Below, piece by piece: positions 36,743 to 52,565 of a stretch of 64,000 bases of DNA; within the stretch, counting starts at the first letter, position 1; each line of letters begins with the position of its first letter. The translations under genes were made by a program, and so were the position numbers. The notes under the pieces were generated by a model. It saw nothing but the letters and a program-made list of their open reading frames with translations, had not been told where the DNA came from and searched no databases. Origin of the DNA: Cupriavidus sp. 2SB (GTDB lineage: Bacteria > Pseudomonadota > Gammaproteobacteria > Burkholderiales > Burkholderiaceae); the NCBI RefSeq assembly GCF_005503625.1, contig NZ_SCMX01000004.1, positions 1-64,000 on the forward strand, written 5' to 3'.

Positions 36743-37385
36743 GGTGGTGTCTCCTTCTGGCGGTGTGTCCCGCCGTTGCGGAATGGCATCTACGTTGGAT
36801 ACCGGTGGTGTTTTGATATGTCTTCTGGTGTTTCTTTTAATCCTGCTTTTACTGCTTTGCTTTTGTTTTTGGACTGCCCTTCTGTCCTGCTGCCTCGAAC
36901 AGCTGAGCCGTTCTAGTGCTATACAGTATGTGGTATATCACCGAAGTTCAAGGGCCTTGGAACGTGTGCCTGACTGGTACAGCGGACATTCGAAAGCACG
37001 CATGATCATCGCAACGCGGACTGGTGCGTCGGGTGCATCAAATTCCTTGGGCGGCTTGTATCGCTCCCCTTTCAGATCAATTACTTAGGGATCTTTTTCG
37101 CATGAATGCATCATGCCGAAGCTGGAGTGGAAATTGGTGCGGCGCATGTTACGGAATACCCGCGATAGGGTAAGTCCCGAGCAATGCGAGAACAAAAAAA
37201 GCAGGGAAACGAACGAGTGGAGCGATATACCGCGCTGCGTCGGGACCTGAGATCCGCAGGCGCAGGGGCATAAGAAGCTGAAGAAACGGCCGCGAGGAAA
37301 ACTGACAAACCACTTCAGTTCAGGTGTTGCCGGCCGCTACAGTGGACCCGAACTTGATACTTGGTACAGCGATAAAACCGAGCGA
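36743..37385. other. 643-bp non-coding region with long leader of the OFA carrier gene
   Basis: The region holds the promoter of the carrier gene, a GntR-type site (36921-36940) and a T-rich stretch (about 36812-36880) between the site and the start. Short ORFs of 60-115 codons in several frames have unconvincing codon use and no ribosome sites. The leader between operator and start (about 180 bp) is unusually long compared with the 40-130 bp of most other sites in this regulon. Confidence 0.5.
36921..36940 (-). promoter_or_regulatory. GntR-type operator, site A (OFA carrier)
   Basis: ATACAGTATGTGGTATATCA on the + strand. The core TGGTATATCA is a near-palindrome typical of FCD-type GntR regulators. 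It is identical over 20 bp to site E before the second frc gene. It lies 179 bp upstream of the carrier start. Confidence 0.7.
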
Positions 37386-37598
37386 TCAGGCGTGCAGGAA
37401 ACGCGGTTGCAGGACGGTGTCCGAAACCGAGCTGCCGATACCGGTATCGCTCTCTTCGGAACCCAGGCCAGCGAAGCGTCCGTGCTCCTGAGCTGTGGTA
37501 AGCAGGCCCATCGGCACGAGCGTGGCGAGGACATACGTGACGGTAACGCCAAGGGAAACCACACCAAGGGCCAGGATAGTAAGCAGCGTAGCGTTCAT
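37386..37598 (-). CDS. Small membrane protein, hypothetical, oxalate regulon
   Basis: A 70-residue protein I do not recognise. Residues about 5-35 are strongly hydrophobic (LLTILALGVVSLGVTVTYVLATLVPMGLL, i.e. one transmembrane helix, key part LALGVVSLGVTVTYVLATLV). The rest is polar: EESDTGIGSSVSDTV. The ribosome site TTAGGAG is well placed before the ATG, and a GntR-type operator (site B) lies 66-85 bp upstream, which supports a real, regulated gene. It sits between the two OFA carrier genes. It could be a partner of one of them; this is a guess from position. Confidence 0.7.
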   Translation of the reverse strand: MNATLLTILALGVVSLGVTVTYVLATLVPMGLLTTAQEHGRFAGLGSEESDTGIGSSVSDTVLQPRFLHA

Positions 37599-37663
37599 GA
37601 AAACTCCTAAGTGATGAAGATCAAGGTGGATTCATTATATGCTGCACTGCGAGGTCTGTAAAT

Positions 37664-37683
37664 ATTTGGTATGTGGTATATCA
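37664..37683 (-). promoter_or_regulatory. GntR-type operator, site B (small membrane protein)
   Basis: ATTTGGTATGTGGTATATCA on the + strand; the last 14 bases are identical to sites A and E. It is 66 bp upstream of the small membrane-protein gene. Confidence 0.65.
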
Positions 37684-37699
37684 GTAGAGGTCTGCGCCT

Positions 37700-37730
37700 A
37701 AAAAGACAACGCACCCCGAGAGGTGCGTTG
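37700..37730 (-). terminator. Intrinsic terminator after the LysR gene
   Basis: Read leftwards, CAACGCACC, loop of six, GGTGCGTTG, then GTCTTTTTA. It follows the LysR gene at 37846-38757 and isolates it from the small membrane-protein gene. Confidence 0.75.
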
Positions 37731-37845
37731 GTCATCACAACAATATGAATAAAATCCGCTTTATCAGTCGCTTTCGTGATGAATTCAGCCTATTAAGGCA
37801 CTAAAAATAATGCGGCGGCGCATCACATGAATCCGTTTCACGATC

Positions 37846-38757
37846 TCACCCTACTTTCTTCAACAGCCCGGTGTCGTATTCCTGTGCACGAAGGTTGTCC
37901 CAGATGGCGGCAGCGTTAGGTTTTAGCGATCGGGACTTGCGCCGCACGAGCATGACGTTGGACGTCACCTGCGGACGCAAAGGGCGAAGCACGGCGGCGG
38001 GCGCCATACCGCTGGCCTGGGCACGCGACGGCACGACGCCAATGCCGAGTCCCATCGCAACCATCCCGAAAATAGCGGCGAAGTGTCCGAGCAATTGCAG
38101 CGAGCCTGGCCTGACGTGATAGGTGGACAACGCGCGGTCCACCGCCGGCTGTACGCCCGAATTCTGATCGAGGGTCAGCACCGAGGCGTCGGCCAGTTCG
38201 CCCCAGCCCACGGACTCCCCCGCTGCCAGCGGATGATCCGCGGGCAATACCGCCTGCAGTGAATCGATGCACAGCGGTTCGCAGTACAGGTCATCGCACG
38301 GCGCCGGGTTGCTGGCGATACCGAAATCCACCTCGCCGCTACGCACGCTCTGCAGGACCGAGTCATGCGATTTGTCGCGCAGCGTAATGCCGATGCCGGG
38401 CCAGGCCTGCCGGCAACCCGCCACCCACATTGGCACCGACATCGAGGACGTCACCGGATCGGTCGCAATCTGCACGGTGCCCTGGCTCGGCTTTCCCGTT
38501 CCATGACTCTCCCGCAGGGTTTGCTCCACCTCTTCTATCAGGTGGCAAATCCGCTGGGAGAGCGTCTCGCCGGCATCGGTTAGCTCCACCTGGCGAGTCG
38601 TACGATCGAACAAGCGCTGGTCGATTTCTTCTTCGAGTTCGCGCACGCTACGGCTGATGGCCGATTGCGTCAGCCCCAACTCCGCCGCGGCGCGCGTAAA
38701 ACTCTTCTGGCGCGCCACAGCGGCAAATGCCTTCAACTGCGGAAGCGAAACATTCAT
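37846..38757 (-). CDS. LysR-family transcriptional regulator
   Basis: A 303-residue LysR regulator. The N-terminal winged helix (LPQLKAFAAVARQKSFTRAAAEL, TQSAISRSVRELEEEI) is standard, and the two-lobed effector domain runs from about residue 92. It follows the second OFA carrier gene by 75 bp in the same direction, so it may be co-transcribed with it. The effector is unknown; the oxalate context suggests a small carboxylate. Confidence 0.92.
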   Translation of the reverse strand: MNVSLPQLKAFAAVARQKSFTRAAAELGLTQSAISRSVRELEEEIDQRLFDRTTRQVELTDAGETLSQRICHLIEEVEQTLRESHGTGKPSQGTVQIATDPVTSSMSVPMWVAGCRQAWPGIGITLRDKSHDSVLQSVRSGEVDFGIASNPAPCDDLYCEPLCIDSLQAVLPADHPLAAGESVGWGELADASVLTLDQNSGVQPAVDRALSTYHVRPGSLQLLGHFAAIFGMVAMGLGIGVVPSRAQASGMAPAAVLRPLRPQVTSNVMLVRRKSRSLKPNAAAIWDNLRAQEYDTGLLKKVG

Positions 38758-38832
38758 GGTGCCGCTCCTTGCTGGCTGTCGCCGTGATAGTGCGGTGGTA
38801 CGGCTACAAAGTTGTAGGTGGGTAATACCTGC

Positions 38833-40188
38833 TTAGTCGCCCTTGCCTGCCGACCAGCCCGTTGCGTACCCGCCCGCATCGCTGACAGGTTTCGCAGCGG
38901 CATGTCCCGTGATGAAGCGCTGGCGCATGGGCTGCAATACGAATTTCGCCGATAGCCCCGCAGCCACAGTCATCGCGGCTGCTACGGCGAAGACGAGGTT
39001 CCATCCGCCCGTATGCGACAGCACCGATGCCAGCGGCACCAGTATCGCGGCTGTCCCCTTGGCCGTGTAAAGCGTGCCGGCATTGGACGCGGCGAAGCGG
39101 CTGCCGAACGTATCTGCACACAACGCCGGGAAGATCGAGAAGATCTCGCCCCAGAACAGGAACACCAGCGCGGCGAAGAACATGAACCAGTACGGGTTAT
39201 GTCCCATCTCCAGCAGGCCGATCAGCGACAGGCCCTCGCCAATGAAAATCACGAACATCGTATTCTCACGACCGATGCGATCCGAGATGAGGCCGCACAA
39301 CGGCCGCGTCAATCCATTGCAAAGGTTGTCGATGGACAGTGTCATCGTCAGCAGCGGCAACGTCATGCCCAGCATCGTGATGGGCATCGTCGCGAAGCCG
39401 AAATCCCGGGCAATCGGTCCAAGTTGCGCGGTGGCCATGATGCCGCCGGCTGCCACGGCCACGAACGATGCATAGATCACCCAGAACACCGGTGTACGCA
39501 CCATCTGGCCCGGCGTGAACTCCACGGGGTTGGTCAGGATGGCCTTGTTGGCCTTCAGCCCCTTGGGCGGGCGTGGCTTGACCAGTAACAACGCCATCGC
39601 AAAGATCAGCACGCCCTGGATGATGCCGAACGTGCGGAACGCATGCTCGTATCCGGACTTCTCGATCATATTTGCAATGGGAATCACCGTGAGGGCTGCG
39701 CCGGCGCCAAACCCTGCAGCGGTGAGCCCGGCTGCCAGCCCGCGCTTGTCCGGGAACCACTTCAGCGCGTTGCCCACGCACGTGCCATAGACACCGCCTG
39801 CGCCGATCCCGGCGAGCACGGCGCCGGCATACAGCATCGGCAGCGACGTGGCATAGGAATTGAGCACCCAGGCAAGACCTGCGCAGATGGCGCCGCCGGC
39901 CACTACCGGCCGGGGTCCGAACTGGTCTACGAGCCAGCCTTCCAGCGGCACGAGCCAGGTTTCGGTCACGATAAAAATGGAAAAGGCGACCTGGATCGCA
40001 GAGTCGCCCCAATGGTGCTTGGCGTTCATGGGATTGACGAACAATGTCCAGCCGTACTGGAGGTTCGCCACAAGCCCCATGCAGAGGATGCCGATGAAAA
40101 GCTGGAACCAGCGATTGCCCAGCAGGCCGCCTGAGCGGCCGCCGTCTTGATTAGCCGTGACGGCGTCTGCCGCATCGAAGTGCGCCAT
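38833..40188 (-). CDS. OFA-family MFS carrier, second paralogue
   Basis: A 451-residue OFA-type major facilitator, closely related to the product of 35435-36742 (NLQYGWTLFVNPMNAKHHWG, WLVPLEGWLVDQFGPRPVV, VYGTCVGNALKWFPDKRGLA as key segments). It has 12 predicted helices. It probably carries oxalate, formate or another short acid. Unlike its paralogue, it has no copy of the GntR-type element upstream; instead an ATAA...TTAT dyad (40348-40364) typical of LysR sites lies in the region shared with the divergent LysR gene. The two carriers may thus serve different signals or substrates. Confidence 0.92.
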   Translation of the reverse strand: MAHFDAADAVTANQDGGRSGGLLGNRWFQLFIGILCMGLVANLQYGWTLFVNPMNAKHHWGDSAIQVAFSIFIVTETWLVPLEGWLVDQFGPRPVVAGGAICAGLAWVLNSYATSLPMLYAGAVLAGIGAGGVYGTCVGNALKWFPDKRGLAAGLTAAGFGAGAALTVIPIANMIEKSGYEHAFRTFGIIQGVLIFAMALLLVKPRPPKGLKANKAILTNPVEFTPGQMVRTPVFWVIYASFVAVAAGGIMATAQLGPIARDFGFATMPITMLGMTLPLLTMTLSIDNLCNGLTRPLCGLISDRIGRENTMFVIFIGEGLSLIGLLEMGHNPYWFMFFAALVFLFWGEIFSIFPALCADTFGSRFAASNAGTLYTAKGTAAILVPLASVLSHTGGWNLVFAVAAAMTVAAGLSAKFVLQPMRQRFITGHAAAKPVSDAGGYATGWSAGKGD

Positions 40189-40347
40189 GTCGTGTCTCCT
40201 TGCATTAGTGTCTTCGCGCTCTGCGGCGCGAGTGCTGGGCTGGCCTGTTTGGGGAACCGCCCGTTTTTTTCACTACTGAATGAGCGCGCCTGACATTGCG
40301 GCACGAATTCGTGCATTGATGCTACTTCAAACTTAGATCAGCACGTC

Positions 40348-40364
40348 ATAAAGTTTTTTATTAT
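40348..40364. promoter_or_regulatory. LysR-type dyad between carrier 2 and LysR gene
   Basis: ATAAAGTTTTTTATTAT has ATAA/TTAT arms around a T-rich centre, as in CbbR-like LysR boxes. It lies 58 bp upstream of the divergent LysR start. A similar dyad (ATAAG-N6-CTTAT) is at 41362-41377. Confidence 0.5.
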
Positions 40365-40405
40365 GATCATTGACGATCCTTTATAGATTGCAGGAATCCA
40401 GTGCA

Positions 40406-41365
40406 ATGAAAAATGCAACGCTGCGGCAATTGAAAGTGTTCGAGACGGTAGCCCGTCACCTGAGCTTTTCGCGGGCCGCAGAGGAGCTGCATCTCACGCA
40501 GCCTGCCGTGTCCACGCAGGTTCGGCAGCTGGAGCACCATGTGGGCCTGCCCTTGTTCGAGCAGCTCGGCAAGCGGATTTACCTCACTCCGGCAGGCACG
40601 GAGATGCTCCACTACAGCCGCAGCATCATCCAGCAATTCAGGGAGGCGGAGGATGCCATGGCGCAACTCAAGGGTATTTCCGGAGGCCGTCTGAACGTCG
40701 CCGTGATCAGCGCCGGCGATTATTTCTTTCCTCGCCTGCTTGCCGAATTCATGAATCGGCATGATGGCGTGACACTGAATCTCGCAGTGCACAATCGCGA
40801 GGAATTGCTGCATCAACTGGGCGGAAACCTGACGGACCTGGCTGTCATGGTGCGCCCACCAGAAGGTATTGACACCATTGCGGAATCATTCGCTCCTCAT
40901 CCCTACGTGATTGTGGCCGCGCCGAATCATCCACTTGTTGGGCAACGCAACATACCTCTGGCCGGCTTGGCGGAGGAGGCGTTTGTTTCACGCGAAAAAG
41001 GATCTGACACCTGGAACTCGATGCAGGAAGGTTTTGCGGGAAGGCTGTCCAACCTTCGCATCGCCATGGAGATCAAGAGCACCGAGACCATCAAACAGGC
41101 GGTGATCGCCAACATGGGGATCGCTTTTCTCTCGGCGCATACCGTCGGACTGGAACTGCAGACCGGCAAACTGGCCGTGCTCGATATCCAGGGCTTCCCG
41201 GTGATGCTGAACTGGTATGTCGTGCACCGGAAAAACAAGCGTCTTCCCCCGGTAGCGCTGGCATTCAAGCATTTTCTGATGGAGGAAGGTCATACGCTGA
41301 TCCAGCAGATCACCGGTGTCGAGGGGTTGATCCGGCCCGCGCAACGACATCGCGTCAATGCATAA
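40406..41365 (+). CDS. LysR-family regulator, CbbR-like
   Basis: A 319-residue LysR protein whose N-terminus (LRQLKVFETVARHLSFSRAAEELHLTQPAVS, key part SRAAEELHLTQPAVSTQV) closely resembles CbbR, the Calvin-cycle regulator. It is divergent from the second OFA carrier. Two ATAA...TTAT dyads flank it, one in the divergent promoter and one just after its own stop, before the small gene at 41474. Growth on oxalate or formate in Cupriavidus can involve the Calvin cycle, but no cbb genes are in this window. The target set is inferred from the dyads. Confidence 0.9.
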   Translation: MKNATLRQLKVFETVARHLSFSRAAEELHLTQPAVSTQVRQLEHHVGLPLFEQLGKRIYLTPAGTEMLHYSRSIIQQFREAEDAMAQLKGISGGRLNVAVISAGDYFFPRLLAEFMNRHDGVTLNLAVHNREELLHQLGGNLTDLAVMVRPPEGIDTIAESFAPHPYVIVAAPNHPLVGQRNIPLAGLAEEAFVSREKGSDTWNSMQEGFAGRLSNLRIAMEIKSTETIKQAVIANMGIAFLSAHTVGLELQTGKLAVLDIQGFPVMLNWYVVHRKNKRLPPVALAFKHFLMEEGHTLIQQITGVEGLIRPAQRHRVNA

Positions 41366-41377
41366 GCATTTACTTAT
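41362..41377. promoter_or_regulatory. LysR-type palindrome before the 105-residue gene
   Basis: ATAAG-CATTTA-CTTAT: perfect 5-bp arms. It begins inside the stop region of the CbbR-like gene, 97-112 bp upstream of the gene at 41474. It resembles the dyad at 40348-40364. Confidence 0.5.
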
Positions 41378-41473
41378 GGTTTTTCGATGTAACTTTAATT
41401 ATCGTAAATCGTTCGTCCTGCCTAAGCTGCACACATACCAAGATTCACCGCAGTGCACTTTCAGGAGACGAAC

Positions 41474-41791
41474 ATGCAACAACTTCATACCGGCGAATCC
41501 GCCTCCTCCCTTTCCACGTCAGCCGGTAACGACACGCGCCATCATGACCGCGACGTCCAGCTGGCCGCCTACAACGCCGCATTCGACGAACTGGAGCTGA
41601 CGTTCCGCTGGGACGCACCCATGTTCGAATGGCTGTGCGGCATCGAGTGCGAAAAAGCCCGCGTGGCGCGCTACATCGAGCAGTACCATGCGCACCTGCT
41701 CACCGCGTACGATGCGCCGTTCCTCAGCCAACTCATCTTCGACAAGAAGAACGAGTACCTGCGCGCCGTGGCGGGAGCAGGGACGAATTGA
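41474..41791 (+). CDS. Hypothetical protein, 105 residues
   Basis: I do not recognise this protein. It is acidic and aromatic-rich, with no signal peptide or membrane segment; the middle reads ELTFRWDAPMFEWLCGIECEKARVARYI (key part FEWLCGIECEKARVARY), with two cysteines four residues apart (CGIEC), and the end is helical. AGGAG at 41463-41467 gives a good ribosome site, and a terminator follows at 41823, so it forms a monocistronic unit. A LysR-type palindrome is upstream. It lies between the CbbR-like regulator and the CoA-ligase pair. Confidence 0.75.
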   Translation: MQQLHTGESASSLSTSAGNDTRHHDRDVQLAAYNAAFDELELTFRWDAPMFEWLCGIECEKARVARYIEQYHAHLLTAYDAPFLSQLIFDKKNEYLRAVAGAGTN

Positions 41792-41822
41792 ATCGCTGAG
41801 TTCTTCAGTCTTGAAGTCAAAG

Positions 41823-41848
41823 GCGCGCCAATGGCGCGCTTTTTATTT
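41823..41848 (+). terminator. Intrinsic terminator after the 105-residue gene
   Basis: GCGCGCC, loop AAT, GGCGCGC, then TTTTTATTTT: a textbook terminator 32 bp past the stop. Confidence 0.85.
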
Positions 41849-41977
41849 TCCTGGCCGGCGACGACAAGTTCAGATCGCTTCCCTTGTAGATCCCGGCCAA
41901 GGTCCCGACCGCTATCGAGGCAGGAGAAGGGCTTCCTACCTACTCGTTTTCGCGGATTTCCTTACACCTTTCTCGTT

Positions 41978-41997
41978 GATATATTACATACCGTATT
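41978..41997 (+). promoter_or_regulatory. GntR-type operator, site C (CoA-ligase pair)
   Basis: TGATATATTACATACCGTAT; on the other strand this is ATACGGTATGTAATATATCA, matching sites A-E in inverted orientation, as expected for a rightward gene. It lies 62-81 bp upstream of the ligase beta-subunit start. Confidence 0.65.
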
Positions 41998-42058
41998 TTT
42001 GTAAGGAAATCGACGCTTCCAAGACCGGCATTCGGCATATAACAGCGAGAGGAGACAC

Positions 42059-43270
42059 GTGGACATCCACGAACATCAGGCCAAGGAATTGCTCAGGCGC
42101 TATGACGTGCCCGTGCCACCCGGCTGCGTGGCCTTTACGCCGGACGACGCCGCCCATGCCGCCCGCAAGCTTGGGGGCTCTGCCTGGGTGGTGAAGTCGC
42201 AGATTCACGGGGGCGGCCACGGCGCCGGCAGTTTCGCGGGCAATCATTCGGAAAAGGGTGGCGTGCGTGTCGCGATGTCCATTGACGAGGTGCACGCCAA
42301 CGCTGCGCAGATGCTGGGCAGGACCTTGATCACCAGGCACACCGGCCCGGCCGGCCGGGTCGTGCGGCGTCTTTATATCGAGAAAGACTGCGTTATCTCG
42401 CGCGAGCTTTACCTTGCCATCCTGATCGACCCCGCCACGGCGCGCGTCACGATCATGGTGTCGACCGAAGGCGGCACCGACATCGACGAGGTTGCCGCAC
42501 ACACACCAGAGAAGATCCTGAAGGTGGCGATCGACCCGGCTTGCGGTATCCAACCGTTCCATGCACGCCGGCTGGCGTTCGGCCTCGGGCTGTCAGGCAA
42601 GCTGGCGGATGCCGCCACGCCACTCATTCTCTCGGCCTATCGCGCCTTCACCGAGCTCGACGCGTCGCTCCTGGAAATTCATCCGCTTGCAGTCACGGAC
42701 AACGGCGAGGTCATGGCGCTCGACGCCAGGTTCCGCTTCGACGACAACGCCCTCTTCCGCCATCCCGAGATCGAGGCAATGCGCGACGAGGGCGAGGAGG
42801 ACCCCGCCGAGACCGAGGCTGCCAGGCACGCGCTGAACTATGTCCAATTGGACGGCACTATCGGCTGCATGGCCAATGGCGCGGGACTCGGGATGGCCAC
42901 CATGGACATCGTCAGGCTCCATGGCGCCGAGCCAGCCAACTTGCTGGATATAGGCGCCAGTACCACCACGGAGCGCATCACGACGGCCTTCCGCCTGATC
43001 CTGGCCGATCCGAATGTCAAAGGTGTTCTGGTGAATATCTTCGGCGGGGTCGTGCGCTGCAACGACATTGCCGAAGGCGTCATCGCGGCCGCGCGCGAAG
43101 TGGACCTGACCGTGCCGCTGGTAGTGCGGCTGGCTGGCACCAACGTCGATCAGGGCAGGCATACCCTGCGCAATTCAGGTCTGCCGATCGTGTCTGCCGG
43201 GGATCTAGCCGATGCGGCCGAAAAGATTGTGACCGCCGTGCGCGCCACGCAGACAAAAGGAGGCAGGTGA
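42059..43270 (+). CDS. ADP-forming acid-CoA ligase, beta subunit (SucC/malate-CoA-ligase-like)
   Basis: A 403-residue protein of the succinyl-CoA synthetase beta family: [15 protein letters not shown] start, ATP-grasp domain ([15 protein letters not shown]), and the C-terminal flavodoxin-like ligase domain with [16 protein letters not shown]. It is longer than housekeeping SucC (about 388) owing to a small insertion after the first ATP-grasp loop. The GTG start at 42059 follows GAGGAGA. With the alpha subunit it makes a CoA ester from a dicarboxylate. The oxalate context and the shared operator suggest malate, glycolate-derived acids or oxalate itself rather than succinate. Confidence 0.9.
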
Positions 43271-43271
43271 A

Positions 43272-44144
43272 ATGGGTGTCCTGATCAACCAGAACACGCG
43301 CGTGATCTGCCAGGGCTTTACCAGCGCGCAAGGCACGTTCCATGCGGAACAGGCCCTGGCCTACGGCACGAAGATGGTCGGCGGCGTTGCGCCCGGCAGA
43401 GGCGGAGCGACGCACCTCGGCCTGCCGGTTTTCGACTCCGTGGCGGCAGCGGCCGACGCCACCGGCGCGGATGCATCGGTCATCCACGTACCACCACCGT
43501 TCGCCGCCGATGCCATCCTGGAAGCGGTCGATGCGGGCATTGCCCTGATCGTCTGCATGACCGAAGGCGTCCCCGTGATGGACATGGTGCGCGTCAAGCG
43601 TGCGCTGTCAGGTTCCGGCAGCCGCCTGATCGGCCCGGGTTGCACGGGCGTGATCACGCCCGGCCAATGCAAGATCGGCGTCATGCCCGGGCACATCCAC
43701 GCGTCGGGCAAGATCGGCGTAGTGTCACGTTCGGGTACGTTGATGTACGAGGCCGTAGCGCAAACCACGGCTGCCGGGCTGGGTCAGTCGACCTGCATCG
43801 ACATTGGCAGCGATCCGGTCAACGGCACCAGCTTTATCGACTGCCTGGAGATGTTCCTGGCCGACGACCAGACCGAAGGCATCCTCATGCTGGGCGAGAT
43901 CGATGGGTCTGCGGAAGAAGACGCCGCACGCTTCCTGCGCGAAGCCCGGTGTCGCAAACCCGTGGTGGGCTACATCGCCGGCAACACTGCGCCAGCGGGA
44001 CGCAGCATGGGTCATGCAGGGGCCGTTGTCTTGAGGGGGACAGGGACGGCGGAAGCCAAGATCGACGCCATGCGGCAAGCCGGACTCCATGTGCCCGCTT
44101 CGCCAGCGGTTCTGGGAGCAACCATGGCAGCCGCGATGAAATAG
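43272..44144 (+). CDS. ADP-forming acid-CoA ligase, alpha subunit (SucD-like)
   Basis: A 290-residue SucD-type subunit. The CoA-binding N-terminus ([22 protein letters not shown], key part [16 protein letters not shown]) and the phosphohistidine loop [11 protein letters not shown] are intact. It starts 1 bp after the beta-subunit stop with AAAGGAGG upstream, so both subunits are made together. An extra housekeeping sucCD pair is expected elsewhere in the genome; this pair is likely a dedicated catabolic ligase such as malate-CoA ligase. That assignment is inference. Confidence 0.92.
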
Positions 44145-44149
44145 GCATC

Positions 44150-44177: not shown

Positions 44178-44195
44178 GAAAAAGAGAGAAGAAGT

Positions 44196-44633
44196 TCAGG
44201 CTGCGGCGCCCGCCTTGGCTTCCAGTTCCGTGATGCGCTTGCGCAGCGCCCGTTCTTCCTGAAAGCGCGCGGTCTCGTCGCGGATCACCGCCACGATGCC
44301 CGTAATCTCCCCGCCCTCTCCGTGCAGCAACGCCACGGTAAAGGCGATCGACATCGCCTCGCCTTTCTTGTTGATCGCCGGGACTTTCAGCAAGTCATGG
44401 CCGTAGCGGGTCTGGCCCGTTGCCATGGTCTTGTCGTACCCCTCCCAGTGGCGCGCACGCAGGCGCTCGGGAATGATCAGGTCCAGCGACTTGCCCAGGG
44501 CTTCCTCCTGGGTGAAACCGAACATGTATTCTGCCGCGGGGTTCCACAACGTGATGGCGCCATCGGCGCCGGAGATGATGATGGCGTCGCCGATGGCGGA
44601 CACCAATTGTTCGTAGTCGATTGCAGTCTGCAT
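44196..44633 (-). CDS. Stand-alone PAS-domain protein
   Basis: A 145-residue protein that is essentially one PAS domain (residues about 8-120: GADGAITLWNPAAEYMFGF, TQEEALGKSLDLIIPERLR, GEITGIVAVIRDETARF as key parts) followed by a short coiled coil. There is no kinase, cyclase or DNA-binding domain. It may sense a small molecule or redox state and signal to a partner. AGGA placed six nucleotides before it favours the ATG at 44633 over the one at 44639. It lies 118 bp downstream of the frc-oxc operon, in the same direction. Confidence 0.88.
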   Translation of the reverse strand: MQTAIDYEQLVSAIGDAIIISGADGAITLWNPAAEYMFGFTQEEALGKSLDLIIPERLRARHWEGYDKTMATGQTRYGHDLLKVPAINKKGEAMSIAFTVALLHGEGGEITGIVAVIRDETARFQEERALRKRITELEAKAGAAA

Positions 44634-44762
44634 GGTCATTCCTGAGGAATGGGAAGAGGCGTGGATCGTCGCCCCGGGTTCCAGGCTGTCATTCTGGCAC
44701 TTGCCCGAGCCGCCGGGGAATGCGCGGAAGGTTTCGTCCGCGCGTTCCCCGGCACACCGCGC

Positions 44763-46013
44763 TCAGATTACCTGCGACTCGCGCAGGCTGACGATTTCCT
44801 CGGCGCTGTAGCCAAGGCCGGCCAGCACTTCGTCGCTGTGCTCGCCCAGCAGCGGCGAACCCGTGATTTCCGGCTTCAGGTCCGAGAACTTGATCGGGCT
44901 GCCCACGGTCAGGTACGTGCCACGAACCTTGTGCGGAACTTCCACGATCGAGCCGCTCTTGCGCAGCGATTCATCTGCGGCAATTTCCTTCATCGACAGC
45001 ACCGGCGAGCAAGGAATATCGTACTTGCGCAGGATATCCACCGCTTCGTACTTGGTCTTGTCGGCCAGCCAGGCTTCGATGGTATTGAAGATGTCGAAGA
45101 TGTGCGGCTGACGCGCCTTCGCCGTGCTGTAGTTCGGGTCGGTAATCCACTCTTCCTTGCCCAGCGCCTTGCAGATCGGCTCCCAGGCGTGGCCCTGGAT
45201 GGTGAAGTAGATGTAGGCGTTGGGATCGGTCTCCCAGCCCTTGCACTTCAGCACCCAACCCGGCTGGCCGCCACCGCCGGCGTTGCCGCCGCGGGGCACC
45301 ACGTCGCTGAACGTACCGTGCGGGTACTGCGGATACTCTTCCAGGTAACCCAGGGCATCCAGGCGCTGCTGGTCGCGCAGCTTCACACGGCACAGGTTCA
45401 GCACGGCATCCTGCATCGACACGGCCACCTTCTGGCCCTTGCCGGTCTGCTGGCGGCCGATGATTGCGGTCAGGATACCGATGGCCAGGTGCATGCCGGT
45501 GTTCGAATCACCCAGGGCAGCTGCCGACACCGTGGGCGGACCGTCCCAGAAACCGGTGGTCGATGCAGCGCCGCCCGCGCATTGCGCCACGTTTTCGTAG
45601 ACCTTCAGGTCTTCATAGTGGTGGCCGTCGCTGAAGCCCTTGACCGATGCCACGATCATCAGCGGATTGAGTTCCTTGATGCGGTCCCACGAGAAGCCCA
45701 TGCGATCCAGTGCGCCCGGACCGAAGTTTTCCACCAGCACGTCAGATTCGCGAATCAGTTGTTCGAGAATCTTCTTGCCTTCGGGCTTCTTGGTGTCCAG
45801 CGTCAACGAGCGCTTGTTGCTGTTGAGCATCGTGAAGTACAGCGCGTCCGCGTCAGGAACGTCGCGGAGCTGCGTACGGGTGACGTCGCCGGAGCCGGGG
45901 CGCTCCACCTTGATCACGTCTGCGCCAAACCACGCGAGAAGCTGGGTGCAGGCGGGGCCGGCCTGGACGTGCGTGAAGTCGATGATCTTGATGCCGTGCA
46001 GTGGAAGGTTCAC
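44763..46013 (-). CDS. frc: Formyl-CoA:oxalate CoA-transferase
   Basis: A 416-residue class III CoA-transferase that swaps CoA from formyl-CoA to oxalate. The nucleophilic Asp169 is exactly placed in ALGDSNTG, as in the Oxalobacter enzyme, and the glycine loop [11 protein letters not shown] is present. The N-terminus [20 protein letters not shown] is typical. It follows oxc by 57 bp in the same direction, forming the classic oxc-frc pair: oxalyl-CoA is decarboxylated to formyl-CoA, and CoA is returned to oxalate. Confidence 0.97.
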
Positions 46014-46070
46014 GTTCGCTCTCCTATTGGATTGAGGAATGGGGGTGAAATTCGAGTGGATTCAAGTGAA

Positions 46071-47804
46071 TTACTTGCTGGCCGAGCTTTGCGGATTCAG
46101 GTTGGTCAGGCGACCGCTTTCCGTGCCGGCAGCCGGATCGATGACGGCGTTGACCAGCGTGGGCTTACCCGAGCGCAATGCTTCATTGACTGCCGCTTCC
46201 AGTTCCTGCGGCGTGGTGACGTTGTGACCGACACCGCCGAACGCTTCCATCATCTTGTCGTAGCGGGCGCCCGGCACGAACATCGTGACGGCCGGGTCCG
46301 AACCGCCCGTCGGGTTCTTGTCGATACCTTTGTAGACGCCGTTGTTGTTGAACACCACGACGCAGATCGGCAGGTTGTAGCGGCAGATTGTCTCCACTTC
46401 CATGCCCGAGAAGCCGAATGCACTGTCACCGCACACCGCCAGCACCGGCTTGCCGGTTTCCACCGCCGCAGCCACCGCATAGCCCATGCCTACACCCATC
46501 ACGCCCCACGTACCTACGTCCAGGCGCTTGCGCGGCTCGTACATGTCGATGACGGCGCGGGCATAGTCCAGCGTGTTGGCGCCTTCGTTGACAAACGGGA
46601 TGCTCGGGTTGGCCTTGACGACATCCTTCAGCACGCGCAGCGCGCTGTGGAAGTTCATCGGCGACGTGTCCTTGGCCAGCGTCTCGGCCATCTTCGCCAG
46701 GTTCTTGTCCTTGCGCTCGTCCACGGCGTTGATCCACTCCGCGCCCGGCTTGGCAAAGTTGTTGCCAATCTTGTCGAGCAGTGCCGATACGCACGATCCG
46801 ATATCACCCACTACCGGCGCGGCGATGGCCACGTTGCTGTCCATCTCGGTCGGCGAGATATCTACCTGGATGAATTGCTTGGGCTTGCCCCAGGTCTTGC
46901 CCTTGCCGTGCGACAGCAGCCAGTTCAGGCGGGCGCCCACCAGCAGCACCACGTCCGCTTCGGCCAGTACGTAAGAGCGCGCGGCCGATGCCGATTGCGG
47001 ATGCGTATCGGGCAGCAGGCCCTTGGCCATGGACATCGGCAGATACGGAATGCCGGTCTTCTCCACCAGCGCGCGGATATCCTCGTCGGCACGGGCGTAG
47101 GCGGCACCCTTGCCCAGCAGGATCAGCGGACGCTTGGCGCCCTTCAGCAGTTCCACGGCGCGATCGATCGAATCCGGTGCCGGGAGTTGGCGCGGAGCGG
47201 GGTCCACCACCTTGATCAGGGACTTGCGACCCTTCTCTGCTTCCATCGACTGGCCCAGCAGCTTGGCCGGCAGGTCCAGGTACACACCGCCCGGACGGCC
47301 GGACACGGCAGCACGAATGGCACGCGCGATCCCCACACCGATGTCTTCGGCGTGCAGCACGCGGAAGGCAGCCTTGGCGTGCGGACGGGCGATGGCCAGT
47401 TGATCCATCTCTTCGTAGTCACCCTGCTGCAGATCGACGATCTCGCGCTCGCTGGAGCCGCTGATCAGAATCATCGGGAAGCAGTTGGTGGTGGCATTCG
47501 CCAGCGCAGTCAGACCGTTAAGGAACCCGGGTGCGGACACCGTCAGGCAAACCCCCGGTTTTTGCGTGAGATAACCAGCGATGGCTGCGGCGTTGCCTGC
47601 GTTCTGCTCGTGACGGAAGCTGATGACGCGCATGCCGTTGGCCTGTGCCAGACGGGCCAGATCGGTGACCGGAATGCCGGGCAGGCCGTAGATATTCTCG
47701 ATGCCGTTCAGCTTGAGCGCGTCGATGACCAGGTGAAAACCATCGGTTTGTGCCTGATGTTCTTCCGCAGCGTGACGCTGCAGCTCGTTTCCGACTTCTG
47801 CCAT
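46071..47804 (-). CDS. oxc: Oxalyl-CoA decarboxylase
   Basis: A 577-residue thiamine-diphosphate enzyme that converts oxalyl-CoA to formyl-CoA and CO2. The N-terminal domain contains the cofactor-activating Glu in [12 protein letters not shown], and the C-terminal cofactor motif begins [13 protein letters not shown] and ends NNNGVYKG. Length and sequence match the family closely. A GntR-type element (site D) lies 114-133 bp upstream. It is the first gene of an oxc-frc operon. Confidence 0.98.
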
Positions 47805-47917
47805 GGTTGCTTCCTTCTATGCAAATTTGACGGGATTGGACTGTCTTTTTTGGTGTCAGCGGTCGGATGGAACGGTGTCTCCTCCCTTTCGATTCGCTGT
47901 ACTTCTCTAACGCTGAA

Positions 47918-47937
47918 ATACCGTATGTGATATATCA
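47918..47937 (-). promoter_or_regulatory. GntR-type operator, site D (oxc-frc operon)
   Basis: ATACCGTATGTGATATATCA on the + strand, differing from site A at two positions. It lies 114 bp upstream of the oxc start. Confidence 0.7.
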
Positions 47938-48053
47938 AAGATCAGCAAGTTATTTCCCACTATTCCGACGAACTTTCGTCGATGCACCGCAGCATTTCGT
48001 GACAAATAGACGCAAATTAAGGGGAATTACCGATTCCCCTGAGTTCTGCCTGG

Positions 48054-48836
48054 TTAGCCGCGCACGTGGTTGACCAGCGAGCCAATTCCGCGAATCGATA
48101 CCTCCACCACCGAACCGTCCTTCATCGACCCGACTCCGATCGACGTGCCAACTGCGATCACGTCGCCCGGCATCAACGTCATGTCCTGTGACAGACGGCT
48201 GACTTGCTCTTCCGGAGAAAACACAATGTCGGACAACGGGTAGTTCTGGCGCTCGACCCCATCCAGGCGCGTCACCACGCTGGCACTGCGCCAGTCGAAT
48301 CCGGTGACGATGGCCGGACCGATGCAACCGAAGGTGTCGGAACCCTTGGCGCGCGTCCACTGCGGGAAATTCGGGTCGGCATTGAGCAGCTCGCCCGCCG
48401 TCACGTCATTGACGATGGTGTAGCCGAAGATATGCGCGGCCGCTTCGTTCAATGGCACGTTGCGGCATTCACGGCCGATGACGATGCCGAGTTCGCCTTC
48501 ATAGGCGATCTTGCCGGCGTAGCCGCTCGGACGAACGATCGCGTCGCCGGGACCAGCCAGTGAACTGGCCGGCTTCAGCAGGAACAACGGATGCACGGGC
48601 ACCGACTTCTCCAGCCGCGCAGCAAGGGCGTGAAAGTTGTTCCATAGCGCCACGATCTTGCCGGGCAGGCACGGCGCGAGCAGTTCCAGCGAGGCGTAGC
48701 TATAGACGCTACCGGTGGGACGGGAATCGGCATAGCCAGGGCCATCGTATTCGATGACGCGGTCGGCATCGCCATCGTCGAGCCGGCCATAAGCAGTGTC
48801 GCCGTCGGGGCGGCGGAAGCGAATCCAGGTTTGCAC
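48054..48836 (-). CDS. Fumarylacetoacetate hydrolase-family protein (FAHD1-like)
   Basis: A 260-residue FAH-fold enzyme: KIVALWNNFHALAARL, FLLKPASSLAGPGDAI, YEGELGIVIGRECR (metal-binding Glu residues), GYTIVNDVTAGEL and TRAKGSDTFGCIGP. Members act as acylpyruvate hydrolases, oxaloacetate decarboxylases or hydratase/isomerases in meta-cleavage pathways. GTG at 48836 has GAGGAG upstream. It lies between the oxc operon and the second frc gene, transcribed leftward. In this setting a decarboxylase or hydrolase acting on an oxalate-derived keto acid is plausible but unproven. Confidence 0.9.
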   Translation of the reverse strand: MQTWIRFRRPDGDTAYGRLDDGDADRVIEYDGPGYADSRPTGSVYSYASLELLAPCLPGKIVALWNNFHALAARLEKSVPVHPLFLLKPASSLAGPGDAIVRPSGYAGKIAYEGELGIVIGRECRNVPLNEAAAHIFGYTIVNDVTAGELLNADPNFPQWTRAKGSDTFGCIGPAIVTGFDWRSASVVTRLDGVERQNYPLSDIVFSPEEQVSRLSQDMTLMPGDVIAVGTSIGVGSMKDGSVVEVSIRGIGSLVNHVRG

Positions 48837-48913
48837 GGCAGAGCTCCTCAGGCAGACGCGTGCGTGTCGCGCCTGCGCTCTCAGCAGGGATTGGGACCCC
48901 CAGTCGGGGGCCA

Positions 48914-48941
48914 GTGACGGGTGACGGGTGACGGGCGACGG
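48914..48941. repeat. Short tandem repeat, 7-bp unit x4
   Basis: Three copies of GTGACGG and one of GCGACGG in a row, flanked by CCAGTGA on both sides. It lies between the second frc gene and the FAH-family gene and is probably slippage-prone and of no coding relevance. Confidence 0.85.
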
Positions 48942-48963
48942 CCAGTGAGCCGCGCGCCTCGCG

Positions 48964-50211
48964 TCAGACGGCTCCCGCTACGCGTAGCGCCGCAATCTGT
49001 GCCGGCGAGCGTCCCAGCCATTCCAGAATCTCGTCGGTGTGCTCACCCAGCAGCGGCGAGCGCTCGACGCTCACCGGCGAGTCGGACAACGTGATCGGCG
49101 AACCCAACTGCACGTATTTACCGCGCGTCGGATGATCCAGTTCCACCAGGTAGCCCCGCTCGTACATCGACTTGTCTTCGATGAGATCCTTCATGGACAG
49201 GATCGGGCCGCACGGCACATCTGCGTCGTTGAGCGCGGTCATGACTTCGAACTTGGTGCGGCCCAGGGTCCATTGCTCGATGATGCCGAAACAGGCCGCG
49301 AGCTTTTTCAGGCGCACTTCCGGCGTGGCGAAATCCGGATCGGTGATCAGGTCCTCGCGACGGCACAGGCGCATCAGCGGCTCCCAGCCCTGCGGCTGGA
49401 TGATGACGTAGACATAGTCGTTCGGGCCGCCGGGTGCACAGCGCAGCGCAGCGCCCGGCTGACCACCGCCCGACGAATTGCCGGCGCGCGGCACGTGGTC
49501 ATCGAACTCGGTATTGGGGTACTCACGCAGCGGGCCAGCCTCGAGGCGCTGCTGGTCACGCAGCTTCACGCGGCACAGGTTCAGCACGGCGTCCTGCATG
49601 GCCACTTCCACGCGCTGACCGCGACCCGAATGTTCGCGCTGCAGCAGTGCGGCCAGGATGCCAACCACGCAGTGCACGCCCGTGCCCGAATCGCCGATCT
49701 GTGCACCCGTCACCGTCGGCACACCATGCGATTCGCCAGTCGTGGACGCGGAACCGCCCATGCACTGCGCCACATTTTCATAGGCCTTGCAGTCCTGGTA
49801 CGGCCCGGGACCAAAACCCTTGATCGACGCGTAGATCATGCGCGGATTCAGGGTCTGGATGTTCTCCCAGTCGAATCCGGCGCGGGCCAGCACACCTGGG
49901 CCAAAATTCTCGATCAGCACATCGCTTTGCTGGATCAGGTCCTCAAGCAGCGCCTTGCCTTCCGGTGTCTTCATATTGAGCGTCAGGCTACGCTTGTTGC
50001 TGTTCAGCATGGTGAAGTACAGGCTGTCGGCATTCGGCACGTCGCGGAGTTGGCTACGCGTGATGTCGCCGCGCCCAGGCATTTCAACCTTGATCACGTC
50101 GGCGCCCATCCAGGCCATCAACTGCGTGGCCGAAGGCCCGGCCTGCACGTGCGTCATGTCCAGGATGCGAATACCGTCCAGCGCTTTCCGTTCGGTGTGA
50201 GTGTCACCCAT
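48964..50211 (-). CDS. frc: Formyl-CoA transferase paralogue
   Basis: A 415-residue class III CoA-transferase closely related to the Frc at 44763-46013 ([21 protein letters not shown]). The nucleophile is Asp174 in QIGDSGTG. The glycine loop reads GNSSGGGQ instead of GNAGGGGQ, with a Ser where the canonical loop has Gly, which may shift kinetics or acceptor choice. ATG at 50211 has GGAGACG upstream; the frame beyond it runs into the operator. It has its own GntR-type site (E), so it is separately expressed from oxc-frc. Confidence 0.93.
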
Positions 50212-50248
50212 GCTGCGTCTCCTGATGATGTGTGTTTGTGCTTTTGAC

Positions 50249-50268
50249 ATACAGTATGTGGTATATCA
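50249..50268 (-). promoter_or_regulatory. GntR-type operator, site E (second frc)
   Basis: ATACAGTATGTGGTATATCA on the + strand, identical to site A. It lies only 38-57 bp upstream of the frc paralogue start, so it overlaps or adjoins the core promoter, consistent with repression. Confidence 0.7.
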
Positions 50269-50364
50269 CCAAGATGCAAGGGGGTTTAAACCCGAATTCA
50301 GCAGCTTTCGATACTGCGCCGCAGCAAGCTGCGTGGACACGCTCTGCGCCCAGACCGCGCAACG

Positions 50365-50399
50365 AAAAAACCCCAACGAGCCGCAAGGCTGTCGGGGTT
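50365..50399 (-). terminator. Intrinsic terminator after the GntR gene
   Basis: Read leftwards, AACCCC-GAC-AGCC-loop-GGCT-CGTT-GGGGTT is followed by TTTTCG: an interrupted stem 78 bp past the gntR stop. Confidence 0.7.
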
Positions 50400-50476
50400 C
50401 AAATGATGCGGTGAAATCGGTTGTGGCTAGCTATCCCTGACACCTGCCAGGCAGCGTGCAAGACGTCACTCCGACG

Positions 50477-51211
50477 TCAGTCCAGGAAGTCGCAGTTCTT
50501 CTCCACGTACTCTGCCAGGTCCAGCGAATGCTGGCGAACCAGCCGCTCGGCCAGCTCCGTGTCGCGTCTTTCCAGCGCCTCGATGATCCGCAGGTGATCA
50601 ACGATAGAACGCGCGGCGCGGTCGCTCTGCGAGATCGTCATTTTTCGAATGGCTCGCACATGAACGAAGATGTTCTTGATCTGGTCCATGATGACCTGCG
50701 ACTTCGACAACTGCACAATCGCCTGGTGAAAGACGATATTCGCGTCCGAGTATTCCTCGATATGCTCGGCGGGCGTGGAGTCGCGGAAGCTGTCGAACAT
50801 ATGGCGCAGCTTGCCGATTTCCGCGTCGGTGGCATTCTGCGTGGCCAGACGCGCGGCCATGCTTTCGAGCGCCGCCCAGACCTGAATCATCTCGACGATC
50901 TCGCGCTTGGTCTTGCGCGTAATGTAGATACCACGTCGTGGCACCGTACGCAGGAAACCTTCCTGCTCGAGTAGCGTCATGGCCTCGCGAATCGGCGTGC
51001 GGCTTACGCCTAGCCTTTCGGACAACACGCGCTCGTCAAGGCGTACTTCGTCACGCGACTGATAGATATCGGCGTCGGCAATCGCCTGGCGCAGCATCGC
51101 ATACGCCTGGTCGCGCAGGCTTGCCCCCGCATTGATAGGTTGCAAGGACAGCGCCAGCCCGGCGGGCGGTTGACCATGCGATTGGACTTCGGATTCGCTT
51201 TGGGCAGACAT
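50477..51211 (-). CDS. GntR-family regulator (FadR/FCD subfamily), oxalate regulon
   Basis: A 244-residue regulator. A short N-terminal tail precedes the winged helix (residues about 30-95: ERVLSERLGVSRTPIREAMTLLE, key part LSERLGVSRTPIREAM), then an all-helical FCD effector domain with the metal-site residues in SDANIVFHQAIVQ. FCD regulators bind short-chain acids. It lies in the middle of seven related 20-bp sites, one of them (F) upstream of its own start, so it is the obvious candidate for the oxalate regulon's repressor. The start at 51211 was chosen over the longer frame to 51313 by family alignment. Confidence 0.92.
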   Translation of the reverse strand: MSAQSESEVQSHGQPPAGLALSLQPINAGASLRDQAYAMLRQAIADADIYQSRDEVRLDERVLSERLGVSRTPIREAMTLLEQEGFLRTVPRRGIYITRKTKREIVEMIQVWAALESMAARLATQNATDAEIGKLRHMFDSFRDSTPAEHIEEYSDANIVFHQAIVQLSKSQVIMDQIKNIFVHVRAIRKMTISQSDRAARSIVDHLRIIEALERRDTELAERLVRQHSLDLAEYVEKNCDFLD

Positions 51212-51380
51212 GAATACACTCGTCAATGGCCGGCGCCCTGCCCGCCAGTCTGGCGAGCAGCGGCGACCCGCCTCTTCCTGAACGTCAACGCGCTCAGTTT
51301 GGCATGACCCCATGCGTTCTGCTCATGAATCTGGCAGGCAACCGAATGGAATCACAGGCGAAGAGGCGGGACCGGCCCTT

Positions 51381-51400
51381 TTGTATATGGTATATCACAA
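51381..51400 (-). promoter_or_regulatory. GntR-type operator, site F (gntR itself)
   Basis: TTGTATATGGTATATCACAA: it keeps the TGGTATATCA core but has a more degenerate left half. It is 170 bp upstream of the gntR start and suggests autoregulation. Confidence 0.55.
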
Positions 51401-51437
51401 AGACGGCACTTCCGAAGGACGTTTAACGCCGCGCGTG

Positions 51438-52469
51438 TTACGCCGCCCTCGCCACTTTCTCAATTTGAGGCGCGGCCACAGCCACAGGCGCAGACGCGGT
51501 AGCCTGCGCCATGCGATCCCGCTGCTTGATCAAGCCGAGCACCGCGTCGATCATCGGGGTCGGCTGACCGATCATGCGGCCCATCTCCTGCACCACCGTC
51601 AGCAACGGATCGATCTCCATCGCCCTGCCCGCCTCCAGGTCCTGCAGCATCGAGGTCTTGTGCGCGCCCACCGCGCCGGCCCCATCGATTCGCCGCTCCA
51701 CATCGACACGAAAATGCACGCCGAACCGTTCCGCGATGTCCTTGGCCTCGAGCATCATCTGCTTCGACAGCCCGCGGGTGGCAGGGTCCGAGGTGATGAT
51801 GTCCAGCGTCCCATGCGTCAGGGCGCTGATCGGGTTGAAGCAGAGGTTGCCCCACAGCTTGAGCCAGATCTCGTCTCGGATGTTGTCGCGAACCGGCGCA
51901 TCGAGATCCGCCTTGGCCATCATCTCCGCAAGGCGCGTCACGCGGTCCGAGCGGGTACCATCGGGCTCACCAATTGGAAATTTCTTGCCGTACACATGCT
52001 TGATCACGCCCGGTGCCACGATTTCGGCGGCGGGATACAGCACACAGCCAATCGCGCGTTCGGGTCCGAGACCATTCCACTGCTTGGCACCCGGGTCAAC
52101 GCTCTCCAGCGTGCGCCCGGCGAACTCGCCCCCGTGGCCGTGGAAGTACCAGTACGGAATGCCGTTCACACCAGTGACCACCGCCGTCTCCGGCCCGAGC
52201 AACGGCTGCATTAGATCGACCACGCCCGGCACCTGGTGCGCCTTTAGCGTAATGAACACGTAGTCCTGAGGGCCGAGTTCGCGCGGATCGCTGGTACAAC
52301 GGACTTTCGCGACGCGCTCTTCGCCTTCGATCTGGAGCCGAACGCCGTTGGCCTGCATGGCGGCCAGGTGCGGCCCGCGCGCGATGAAGCTCACGTCTGC
52401 GCCGGCCAGCGCAAGCTGCGCGCCCATATAGCCGCCGATGGCGCCCGCGCCGTAGATACAAATCTTCAT
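51438..52469 (-). CDS. Ketopantoate reductase-family protein, oxalate regulon
   Basis: A 343-residue NAD(P)-dependent enzyme of the PanE/ApbA family: Rossmann motif GAGAIGGYMGAQLA, TLKAHQVPGVVD, and the C-terminal IRDEIWLKLWGNLCFNPISAL segment. It is 40 residues longer than the paralogue at 10997-11905 because of a C-terminal extension (ATASAPVAVAAPQIEKVARAA-like tail). The GntR-type site G lies upstream, tying it to the oxalate genes. A 2-oxo or 2-hydroxy acid related to glyoxylate or oxalate is a better guess for its substrate than ketopantoate, though this is inference. Confidence 0.9.
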   Translation of the reverse strand: MKICIYGAGAIGGYMGAQLALAGADVSFIARGPHLAAMQANGVRLQIEGEERVAKVRCTSDPRELGPQDYVFITLKAHQVPGVVDLMQPLLGPETAVVTGVNGIPYWYFHGHGGEFAGRTLESVDPGAKQWNGLGPERAIGCVLYPAAEIVAPGVIKHVYGKKFPIGEPDGTRSDRVTRLAEMMAKADLDAPVRDNIRDEIWLKLWGNLCFNPISALTHGTLDIITSDPATRGLSKQMMLEAKDIAERFGVHFRVDVERRIDGAGAVGAHKTSMLQDLEAGRAMEIDPLLTVVQEMGRMIGQPTPMIDAVLGLIKQRDRMAQATASAPVAVAAPQIEKVARAA

Positions 52470-52545
52470 GGGGTTGTCTCCTCGATGGTGGTTTATTTAG
52501 ATATGTGATGCCGAAAGCTGCACGCGGAGCCACTCAAATCCGCAT

Positions 52546-52565
52546 TGGTATATCACATACTATAT
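52546..52565 (-). promoter_or_regulatory. GntR-type operator, site G (ketopantoate reductase-like gene)
   Basis: TGGTATATCACATACTATAT on the + strand; on the minus strand ATATAGTATGTGATATACCA. The spacing of the ATAC-like and core halves matches sites A-E in the opposite orientation. It lies 77-96 bp upstream of the gene. Confidence 0.6.

Follow-up and report, generated by a model that had tools for sequence, protein, structure and literature searches.

The window analysed here is the whole 64,000-nucleotide stretch at positions 1 to 64,000 of contig NZ_SCMX01000004.1 of Cupriavidus sp. 2SB (assembly GCF_005503625.1). Between 35 and 54 kb it carries an island with two oxalate/formate carriers, an oxc-frc pair, a second frc with a FAA-hydrolase gene, a sucCD-like ligase, an ApbA/PanE-like reductase, two LysR genes and one FCD-type GntR gene (gntR). 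A 20-bp element, ATACNGTATGTGRTATATCA, recurs upstream of several genes of the island. Its copies are probably operators of this GntR, which would control its own gene and repress the uptake and use of oxalate. The predicted operators, promoters and genes, with bit scores, are as follows (CoA, coenzyme A; ORF, open reading frame).

36921..36940, minus strand: predicted operator before OFA1, 0 mismatches, 179 bp from the ORF start
About 36951-36946 (-35, TTGAAC) and about 36928-36923 (-10, TACTGT): predicted OFA1 promoter
35435..36742, minus strand: OFA1, oxalate/formate MFS antiporter (TIGR04259, 638.7 bits; cut-off 335)
37664..37683, minus strand: predicted operator before small70, just upstream of a predicted -35/-10 pair
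About 37662-37657 (TTTACA) and about 37639-37634 (TATAAT): predicted small70 promoter
37386..37598, minus strand: small70, 70 residues
41977..41996, plus strand: predicted operator before the sucCD-like pair, 1 mismatch, 63 bp from the start
42059-43270 and 43272-44144, plus strand: sucC-like and sucD-like acid-CoA ligase subunits, passing the NCBIfam succinate-CoA ligase cut-offs
47918..47937, minus strand: predicted operator before oxc, 0 mismatches
About 47948-47943 (-35, TTGCTG) and about 47925-47920 (-10, TACGGT): predicted oxc promoter
46071..47804, minus strand: oxc, oxalyl-CoA decarboxylase (TIGR03254, 1059 bits; cut-off 739)
44763..46013, minus strand: frc1, formyl-CoA transferase, downstream of oxc (TIGR03253, 722 bits; cut-off 504)
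50249..50268, minus strand: predicted operator before frc2, 0 mismatches
About 50279-50274 (-35, TTGCAT) and about 50256-50251 (-10, TACTGT): predicted frc2 promoter
48964..50250, minus strand: frc2, formyl-CoA transferase paralogue (TIGR03253, 627 bits; cut-off 504)
51383..51397, minus strand: predicted operator before gntR, TGATATACCATATAC
50477..51313, minus strand: gntR, FCD-type regulator (PF00392, 45.9 bits, cut-off 27; PF07729, 90.8 bits, cut-off 24.3)
52546..52565, plus strand: predicted operator before apbA2, inverted relative to the gene, 77 bp from its start, with terC on the other side
51438..52469, minus strand: apbA2/panE2-like gene with ApbA domains

Matches above cut-off to TIGR04259, TIGR03254 and TIGR03253 place targets of the predicted operators in oxalate uptake and use. 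The sucC-like beta subunit scored 516 bits, under the malate-CoA ligase cut-off of 604. Translation of frc2 probably starts near 50211, since the ORF start at 50250 overlaps the site and an AGGAG points there, and that of gntR probably at 51211, giving a 244-residue form, because alignments with close relatives begin at its first residue. An earlier sequence-only reading of this DNA described the last gene as ketopantoate reductase-like. It does have ApbA domains, and because its neighbourhood also resembles that of Cupriavidus necator apbA2 (PMC7486775) it is most likely apbA2/panE2, a probable oxalyl-CoA reductase (CoA-acylating glyoxylate dehydrogenase). The comparison covered loci titled C. 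necator (L027, L036 and L038), in which copies at 85-87% identity adjoin gntR. The terC gene (52723) is divergent from apbA2, and one site is common to both.

At three or fewer mismatches the 20-mer matched the window six times and none of 100 dinucleotide shuffles; mismatches were zero at 36921, 47918 and 50249, one at 41977 and two at 37664 and 52546. The core TGRTATAYCA, at up to one mismatch, matched seven times against a shuffle mean of 1.58, and none of the 100 shuffles reached seven. The seventh site (51381-51400, before gntR) fits the 20-mer with more than three mismatches; its core matches, and the 15-mer TGRTATAYCAYATAC lies at 51383-51397. Hence six of the seven copies of one 20-mer reported earlier hold as such and the seventh keeps only 15 bp. 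The third site, placed earlier at 41978-41997, is present one base off, at 41977-41996. Two sites had been called inverted, which is correct on the genome strand; relative to its own gene only the 52546 site is, and the sites assigned to apbA2 in relatives are likewise all inverted (35/35). As had been proposed, each site precedes a different transcription unit: among 13 window genes tested, the seven named by that reading have the 15-mer at up to one mismatch in the 250 bp upstream, and terC has its site in common with apbA2. The best fits in the same interval before LysR1, OFA2, LysR2, PAS and gntR2 have 5-7 mismatches.

The whole genome (6.98 Mb in 174 contigs) was scanned with consensus patterns and a reversed-pattern control. 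The 20-mer at up to three mismatches matched seven times, six in the window and once before OFA3, a third oxalate/formate carrier on contig 129 (TIGR04259, 532 bits; cut-off 335), and the reversed control gave none. All seven matches stand before oxalate genes, as do eight of the ten matches to the 15-mer at up to one mismatch. The expected concentration of sites was thereby found with consensus patterns in place of a matrix; many equally good matches before unrelated genes, the outcome that the earlier reading named as refuting, did not appear, and the seven-site regulon gains an eighth site outside the window, that before OFA3.

Further genes of the island that enter the comparisons are listed next.

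38833-40188: OFA2, second oxalate/formate carrier, between two LysR genes, no site
40370-41365: LysR2
48054-48836: FAA-hydrolase gene, after frc2, with a FAA_hydrolase domain
53544-54233: gntR2, a second FCD-type GntR gene, starting 979 bp past the last site

Lacking a site and flanked by LysR genes, OFA2 is probably under a second layer of control. Beside LysR2 lies a 112-residue protein without a family (orf112, 41453-41791), conserved across genera at about 39-76%, and downstream of oxc-frc1 a small PAS-domain protein (44196-44639) that is retained in many relatives.

Sites before orthologous genes were surveyed in 97 sources, in which some genomes possibly stand twice: the window, 80 loci (L numbers; mostly titled Cupriavidus and Paraburkholderia) with a GntR at 81-95% identity, and 16 further stretches. 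The nearest named relatives of the window GntR are Cupriavidus. Sites at up to three mismatches numbered 277 in 96 of the 97 sources, or 269 once the eight read on both strands are counted singly. Within 450 bp of a query-gene start lie 272 of the 277, five have no such gene, and one is inside a matched coding stretch. The queries were the island genes, OFA3 and the gene of a thiamine pyrophosphate (TPP) enzyme of a relative (TPPx); the survey maps sites before these and cannot exclude other targets. For counts per gene, a site had to lie at most 450 bp upstream; only genes with 300 bp or more upstream were scored, and matches below 55% identity were excluded except for the small-protein and LysR1 queries. 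A site precedes oxc in 23/23 cases, TPPx in 22/22, sucC in 19/19, OFA1 in 12/12, OFA3 in 8/8, small70 in 7/7, its relative small70b in 43/44 and frc2 in 33/38, the five misses being located behind TPPx. The panE-like gene (apbA2) has a site in 34/34 cases at 79% identity or more, and terC in 26/26 because the divergent panE site is common to it. The count for frc1 is 30/66; downstream of oxc it needs no site of its own. In contrast to these, sites within 450 bp upstream were absent from FAA (0/76), OFA2 (0/61), LysR2 (0/51), LysR1 (0/49), orf112 (0/34), gntR2 (0/25), sucD (0/17) and PAS (0/14).

The gntR gene itself has the 20-mer at up to three mismatches in 46 of 81 cases, and the misses shown are loci with the 15-mer form. 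In 34 Cupriavidus-type loci (a list that excludes L045 and the Paraburkholderia-type loci and has two members titled Ralstonia sp. and Burkholderiaceae bacterium) the 15-mer is unchanged in 32 and has one and two changes in the other two. Paraburkholderia-type loci carry the site before small70b, which directly precedes gntR. A conserved predicted operator therefore stands ahead of gntR, as autoregulation requires.

Two side observations come from the same loci. Many of L027-L047 and L051-L097 have, some 120-280 bp away from the frc/TPP site, a second site that faces outward and is kept even without a divergent sucCD; a fixed spacing between such paired sites was rejected, the distance varying by eye over that range. 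TPPx (L022:12484-14232 and 22 loci) is a TPP enzyme unlike Oxc (26-29%) that stands under the same predicted operator in relatives. Among the 25 best of 50 NCBIfam models it fell below every cut-off (best 434.9 against 587); the next-best model was 2-hydroxyacyl-CoA lyase (355.8 against 600), and TPPx possibly performs a 2-hydroxyacyl-CoA lyase-like step. For small70, sucCD, FAA and TPPx a link to oxalate is predicted from their place in the regulon.

Which regulator reads the sites was addressed by co-occurrence in 249 Burkholderiaceae genomes (G numbers), with the site at up to one mismatch and proteins at set E-value limits. Positive genomes numbered 73 for the site, 117 for GntR, 113 for Oxc, 115 for LysR2 and 25 for gntR2. 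Site and GntR occurred together in 73 genomes, the site alone in none, GntR alone in 44 and neither in 132. The oxalate pathway by itself does not explain this pattern: none of the 27 genomes with Oxc and without GntR has the site, and 22 of the 31 with GntR and without Oxc have it. Among 300 genomes of the order, nine of them in the family, five have the site and five GntR; G009 has GntR and no site. Of the 291 outside the family only G444 has GntR (70%); the contig that carries it also has a site, ahead of a TPPx relative at 85%. The 73/73 co-occurrence and this independent case in another family support the proposed assignment of the sites to this GntR.

Protein and sites were also compared for joint change. 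Matches shorter than 180 residues were dropped from the GntR alignment, which has 126 rows, 24 of them gntR2-type (32-34%); close and diverged copies were compared without these 24. The metal ligands of FCD domains are an Asp and three His; here Asn replaces the Asp. Asn158, His162, His206 and His228 are invariant in 87/87 close copies, 15/15 diverged copies and also 24/24 gntR2 copies. These residues would fit a metal-held small acid as effector, a non-specific hint since gntR2 has them too. Diverged GntR copies (65-78% identity) lie beside or near oxc in several genomes, where the oxc promoters have changed elements such as TGTGTGTGGAATATTGTATATCAC; these changed sites weakly support the GntR assignment. 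In the helix region, DERVLS occurs in 81/87 close GntRs, and among the 15 diverged copies DEKELT occurs in ten, DERQLI in three and other forms in two. By hand alignment to FadR, the changed Arg presumably corresponds to position 28 of PMC4494728. That position has been tied to the G/C of the half-site (PMC4494728). An Arg-to-Lys change in the helix as cause of the changed oxc sites was not borne out: the Lys copies L133, L139 and L140 keep TGGTATATCA, and L134, a locus in which the adjacent copy has Arg, has TTGTATATCA. Helix residue and operator base show no one-to-one match.

Promoter geometry points to the mode of control. With the best of spacers 15-19 scored, 125 of the 126 sites ahead of genes for enzymes and carriers have a TTG 16-17 bp before their TACNGT (oxc 23/23, frc2 32/32, TPPx 22/22, frc1 28/29, OFA1 12/12, OFA3 8/8); sucC is less regular, with 17 bp in 8/19 and 19 bp in 6. 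This puts the core into the spacer of the promoter and the arm over the -10 element, which is a repressor position, and overlap of operator and promoter with repression is inferred for these genes. At small70 in the window, TTTACA-17-TATAAT follows just downstream of the site. Across 50 small70-type sites (7 small70 and 43 small70b), TATRAT or TATACT occurs within 30 bp downstream in 44. TANNNT at the arm was found in none of the 50, although CATAC is kept; CATAC therefore probably belongs to the operator, and the outer GTAT is probably in part a promoter -10 rather than a regulator contact. Core columns look more conserved than the -35, a comparison inflated for core and arm by the picking of sites on both.

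Operators of this general kind are known. The FadR subfamily with 2-nt operator spacing (UxuR, MdcY, PrpR and GntR) is described in PMC4494728. It shares with the present system the GntR and FCD domains, a palindrome of 10 bp that ends in TG..CA and is AT-rich at its centre, and an extra half-box 7-12 nt from the centre, here CATAC at about 7.5 nt. TG, T, A, CA and the 2-nt spacing of the consensus TKGT-N2/3-ACMA are present in the core, but its inner G/C is not. The word 'oxalate' is absent from the main text of that paper.

Taken together, the sites are probably operators of an autoregulated GntR (50477-51313) that represses oxalate uptake and use and is released by oxalate or a product of it. 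Without inducer, a GntR dimer would sit on the TGRTATAYCA core, aided by the added CATAC box, and occupy the 16-17 bp spacer and -10 element of enzyme and carrier promoters, blocking RNA polymerase. Oxalate or a close product (oxalyl-CoA, glyoxylate or formate) would bind the FCD domain, probably at the N/H/H/H metal site, and release GntR. Carriers, Frc, Oxc, the sucCD-like ligase and oxalyl-CoA reductase would then be produced jointly, with GntR also controlling its own gene. The sucCD-like ligase could supply CoA when oxalyl-CoA is reduced and not cycled through formyl-CoA.

Several observations weigh against this repressor model. Below 79% identity only 1 of 25 panE genes has a site. (In Paraburkholderia-type loci, among L052-L097, the apbA2-like gene is located elsewhere, mostly without a site, and its control seems to differ there.) Of the 117 GntR genomes, 44 lack a site at up to one mismatch: 26 of these have only a GntR at 69-71% and 18 have one at 80-84%, and in the four of the 18 inspected (L139, L140, L142 and L144) the best sites have 2-4 mismatches. 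The genomes are related, so that counts are not independent. The reversed control matched once in the 249 family genomes (G007) and once in the 300 order genomes (G435), and G331, outside the family and without GntR, has a site before a gene that by eye is chitinase-like; the G331 site and the G435 match are probably chance. In the inner G/C of TKGT/ACMA the sites have R/Y, mostly A/T, a departure in one or both half-sites. Two 15-mer matches in the 2SB genome precede unrelated genes, by eye a hydrolase-like gene (contig 15:5210, L015) and a deacetylase-like gene (contig 131:21799, L017). An 18-mer common to both places occurs in 3 of 60 genus genomes, always at the hydrolase, and the hydrolase-gene match is kept at the same gene in 2 of 59 other genus genomes. 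Finally, the small70 site lies upstream of a likely -35, which fits an activator equally well, and LysR2 tracks the site almost as closely as GntR does.

At the 50 small70-type sites a likely -35/-10 pair just downstream speaks for an activator or dual regulator, by which oxalate-bound GntR would switch the regulon on. Activators of the FadR-type family rarely sit on the promoter spacer and -10, and that is where core and arm lie at 125/126 enzyme and carrier sites. Escherichia coli GlcC, a FadR-subfamily protein, is stated in PMC11323563 to be an activator; for the present GntR we consider an activating or dual role unlikely. A mixed form is unlikely too: one GntR would act both ways through one operator, blocking enzyme and carrier promoters and helping the small70(-gntR) promoter from upstream of the -35, with small70 as a partner, specific to oxalate, of either the OFA carrier or GntR, reporting transport to the regulator.

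Binding of the sites by LysR2, equally conserved in the island, was also weighed. It is present in 72 of the 73 site genomes and its gene lies near gntR in many loci. The two regulators are separated only by G242, which has site and GntR without LysR2, and by G038 and G233, which have LysR2 and neither GntR nor site. However, the LysR2 gene and OFA2 have no sites in the survey, gntR has the 15-mer at up to two mismatches in 34/34 loci, and LysR boxes are unlike a 10-bp palindrome over the -10 and spacer, which makes LysR2 improbable as the regulator. The sequence-only reading took gntR to be the only FCD-type GntR gene inside the island; it does lie among the sites, but gntR2, of the same domain family, starts shortly past the last one. 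That gntR2 binds the sites is hardly credible: 49 of the 73 site genomes lack it, G184 has it with neither GntR nor site, and none of its 25 genes scored has a site. It is very improbable as well that the 20-mer is a conserved promoter type or repeat family and no operator. In favour of a promoter, the outer GTAT falls on a TACNGT that resembles a -10 and has a TTG at the distance of a -35, but small70-type sites keep core and CATAC without the TANNNT, the apbA2 site is inverted, and the rest of the genome lacks the element. An RNA element was set aside on geometry only, that is, on the inverted apbA2 site.

The repressor model leaves small70 as the least expected member of the regulon, an unnamed family of small membrane proteins. 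By eye the protein has a single hydrophobic segment; it carries the motif [HN]GR[FY] and matched no Pfam or NCBIfam model. Relatives were found in 71 loci, including 45 of the 80 GntR loci, inside the oxalate regulon or next to it; the loci had been collected for that regulon. In a large-database search at least 331 relatives scored E<=1e-3 among 7994 candidates; of 120 listed, none has a Pfam domain, most named ones are 'hypothetical' and four carry the source name 'Oxalate:formate antiporter'. The gene lies between site and gntR in Paraburkholderia-type loci, and between LysR1 and OFA1 in Cupriavidus-type loci.

Reports on related systems provide several comparisons. In Paracoccus denitrificans, GlcR represses glycolate oxidase and is released by glycolate (PMC11323563). 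Like the regulator proposed here, it belongs to the GntR family and represses an operon for the breakdown of a C2 acid next to its own gene; in the available part GlcR has one target cluster, whereas here eight predicted operators stand on oxalate genes, and the comparison is one of description. PhnR of Burkholderia (TIGR03338) is the best NCBIfam model for the present GntR, yet at 104.3 bits against a cut-off of 271.5 the protein is a non-member. NanR is also an FCD regulator, and binds direct repeats of TGGTATAW (PMC4494728). By eye the site here can also be parsed into a 7-bp repeat resembling GTATRTS, but it has a palindromic core and GntR reaches 62.6 bits against the NanR cut-off of 260. 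An actinobacterial 2-hydroxyisobutyryl-CoA lyase cluster (PMC7176365) usually has a GntR gene upstream of it, beside a formyl-CoA-yielding TPP enzyme, as with TPPx here; phylum and substrate are different, the available part shows no operator, and the comparison is one of description. The oxc/frc/apbA2 pathway of C. necator has the same enzymes in a similar neighbourhood. Deletion mutants lacking frc-oxc there fail to grow on oxalate, and those lacking apbA2, a gene near frc-oxc for a PanE2 relative, grow more slowly (PMC7486775). Neither 'GntR' nor 'repressor' occurs in the main text of the same paper, and 'regulator' stands only in its reference list.

Oxalate clusters have been reported to be induced near a fungus or with sugarcane (PMC5209427 and PMC5116747), the available parts giving no regulator. 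Among the matches listed from open-licence literature, titles and abstract starts name no oxalate GntR, which may be described elsewhere. No link between a GntR and oxalate genes is made in the available parts of PMC2864759, PMC7176365, PMC5987411 and PMC8305402, and 'GntR' is absent from the main texts of PMC12927642, PMC9476978 and PMC5986945. Overall, the analysis describes a new regulon of a known kind, whose predicted operator and regulator are well supported from sequence. Breakdown of oxalate by oxc and frc is important in soils and around plant roots, and in C. necator it can be used to oxidise glyoxylate; the papers retrieved name no regulator for it. A defined operator with a candidate regulator would give a ready oxalate sensor. 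The regulon would be readable from many Burkholderiaceae genomes, and a family of small membrane proteins and a ligase of sucCD-like type would both gain a place in the metabolism of oxalate.

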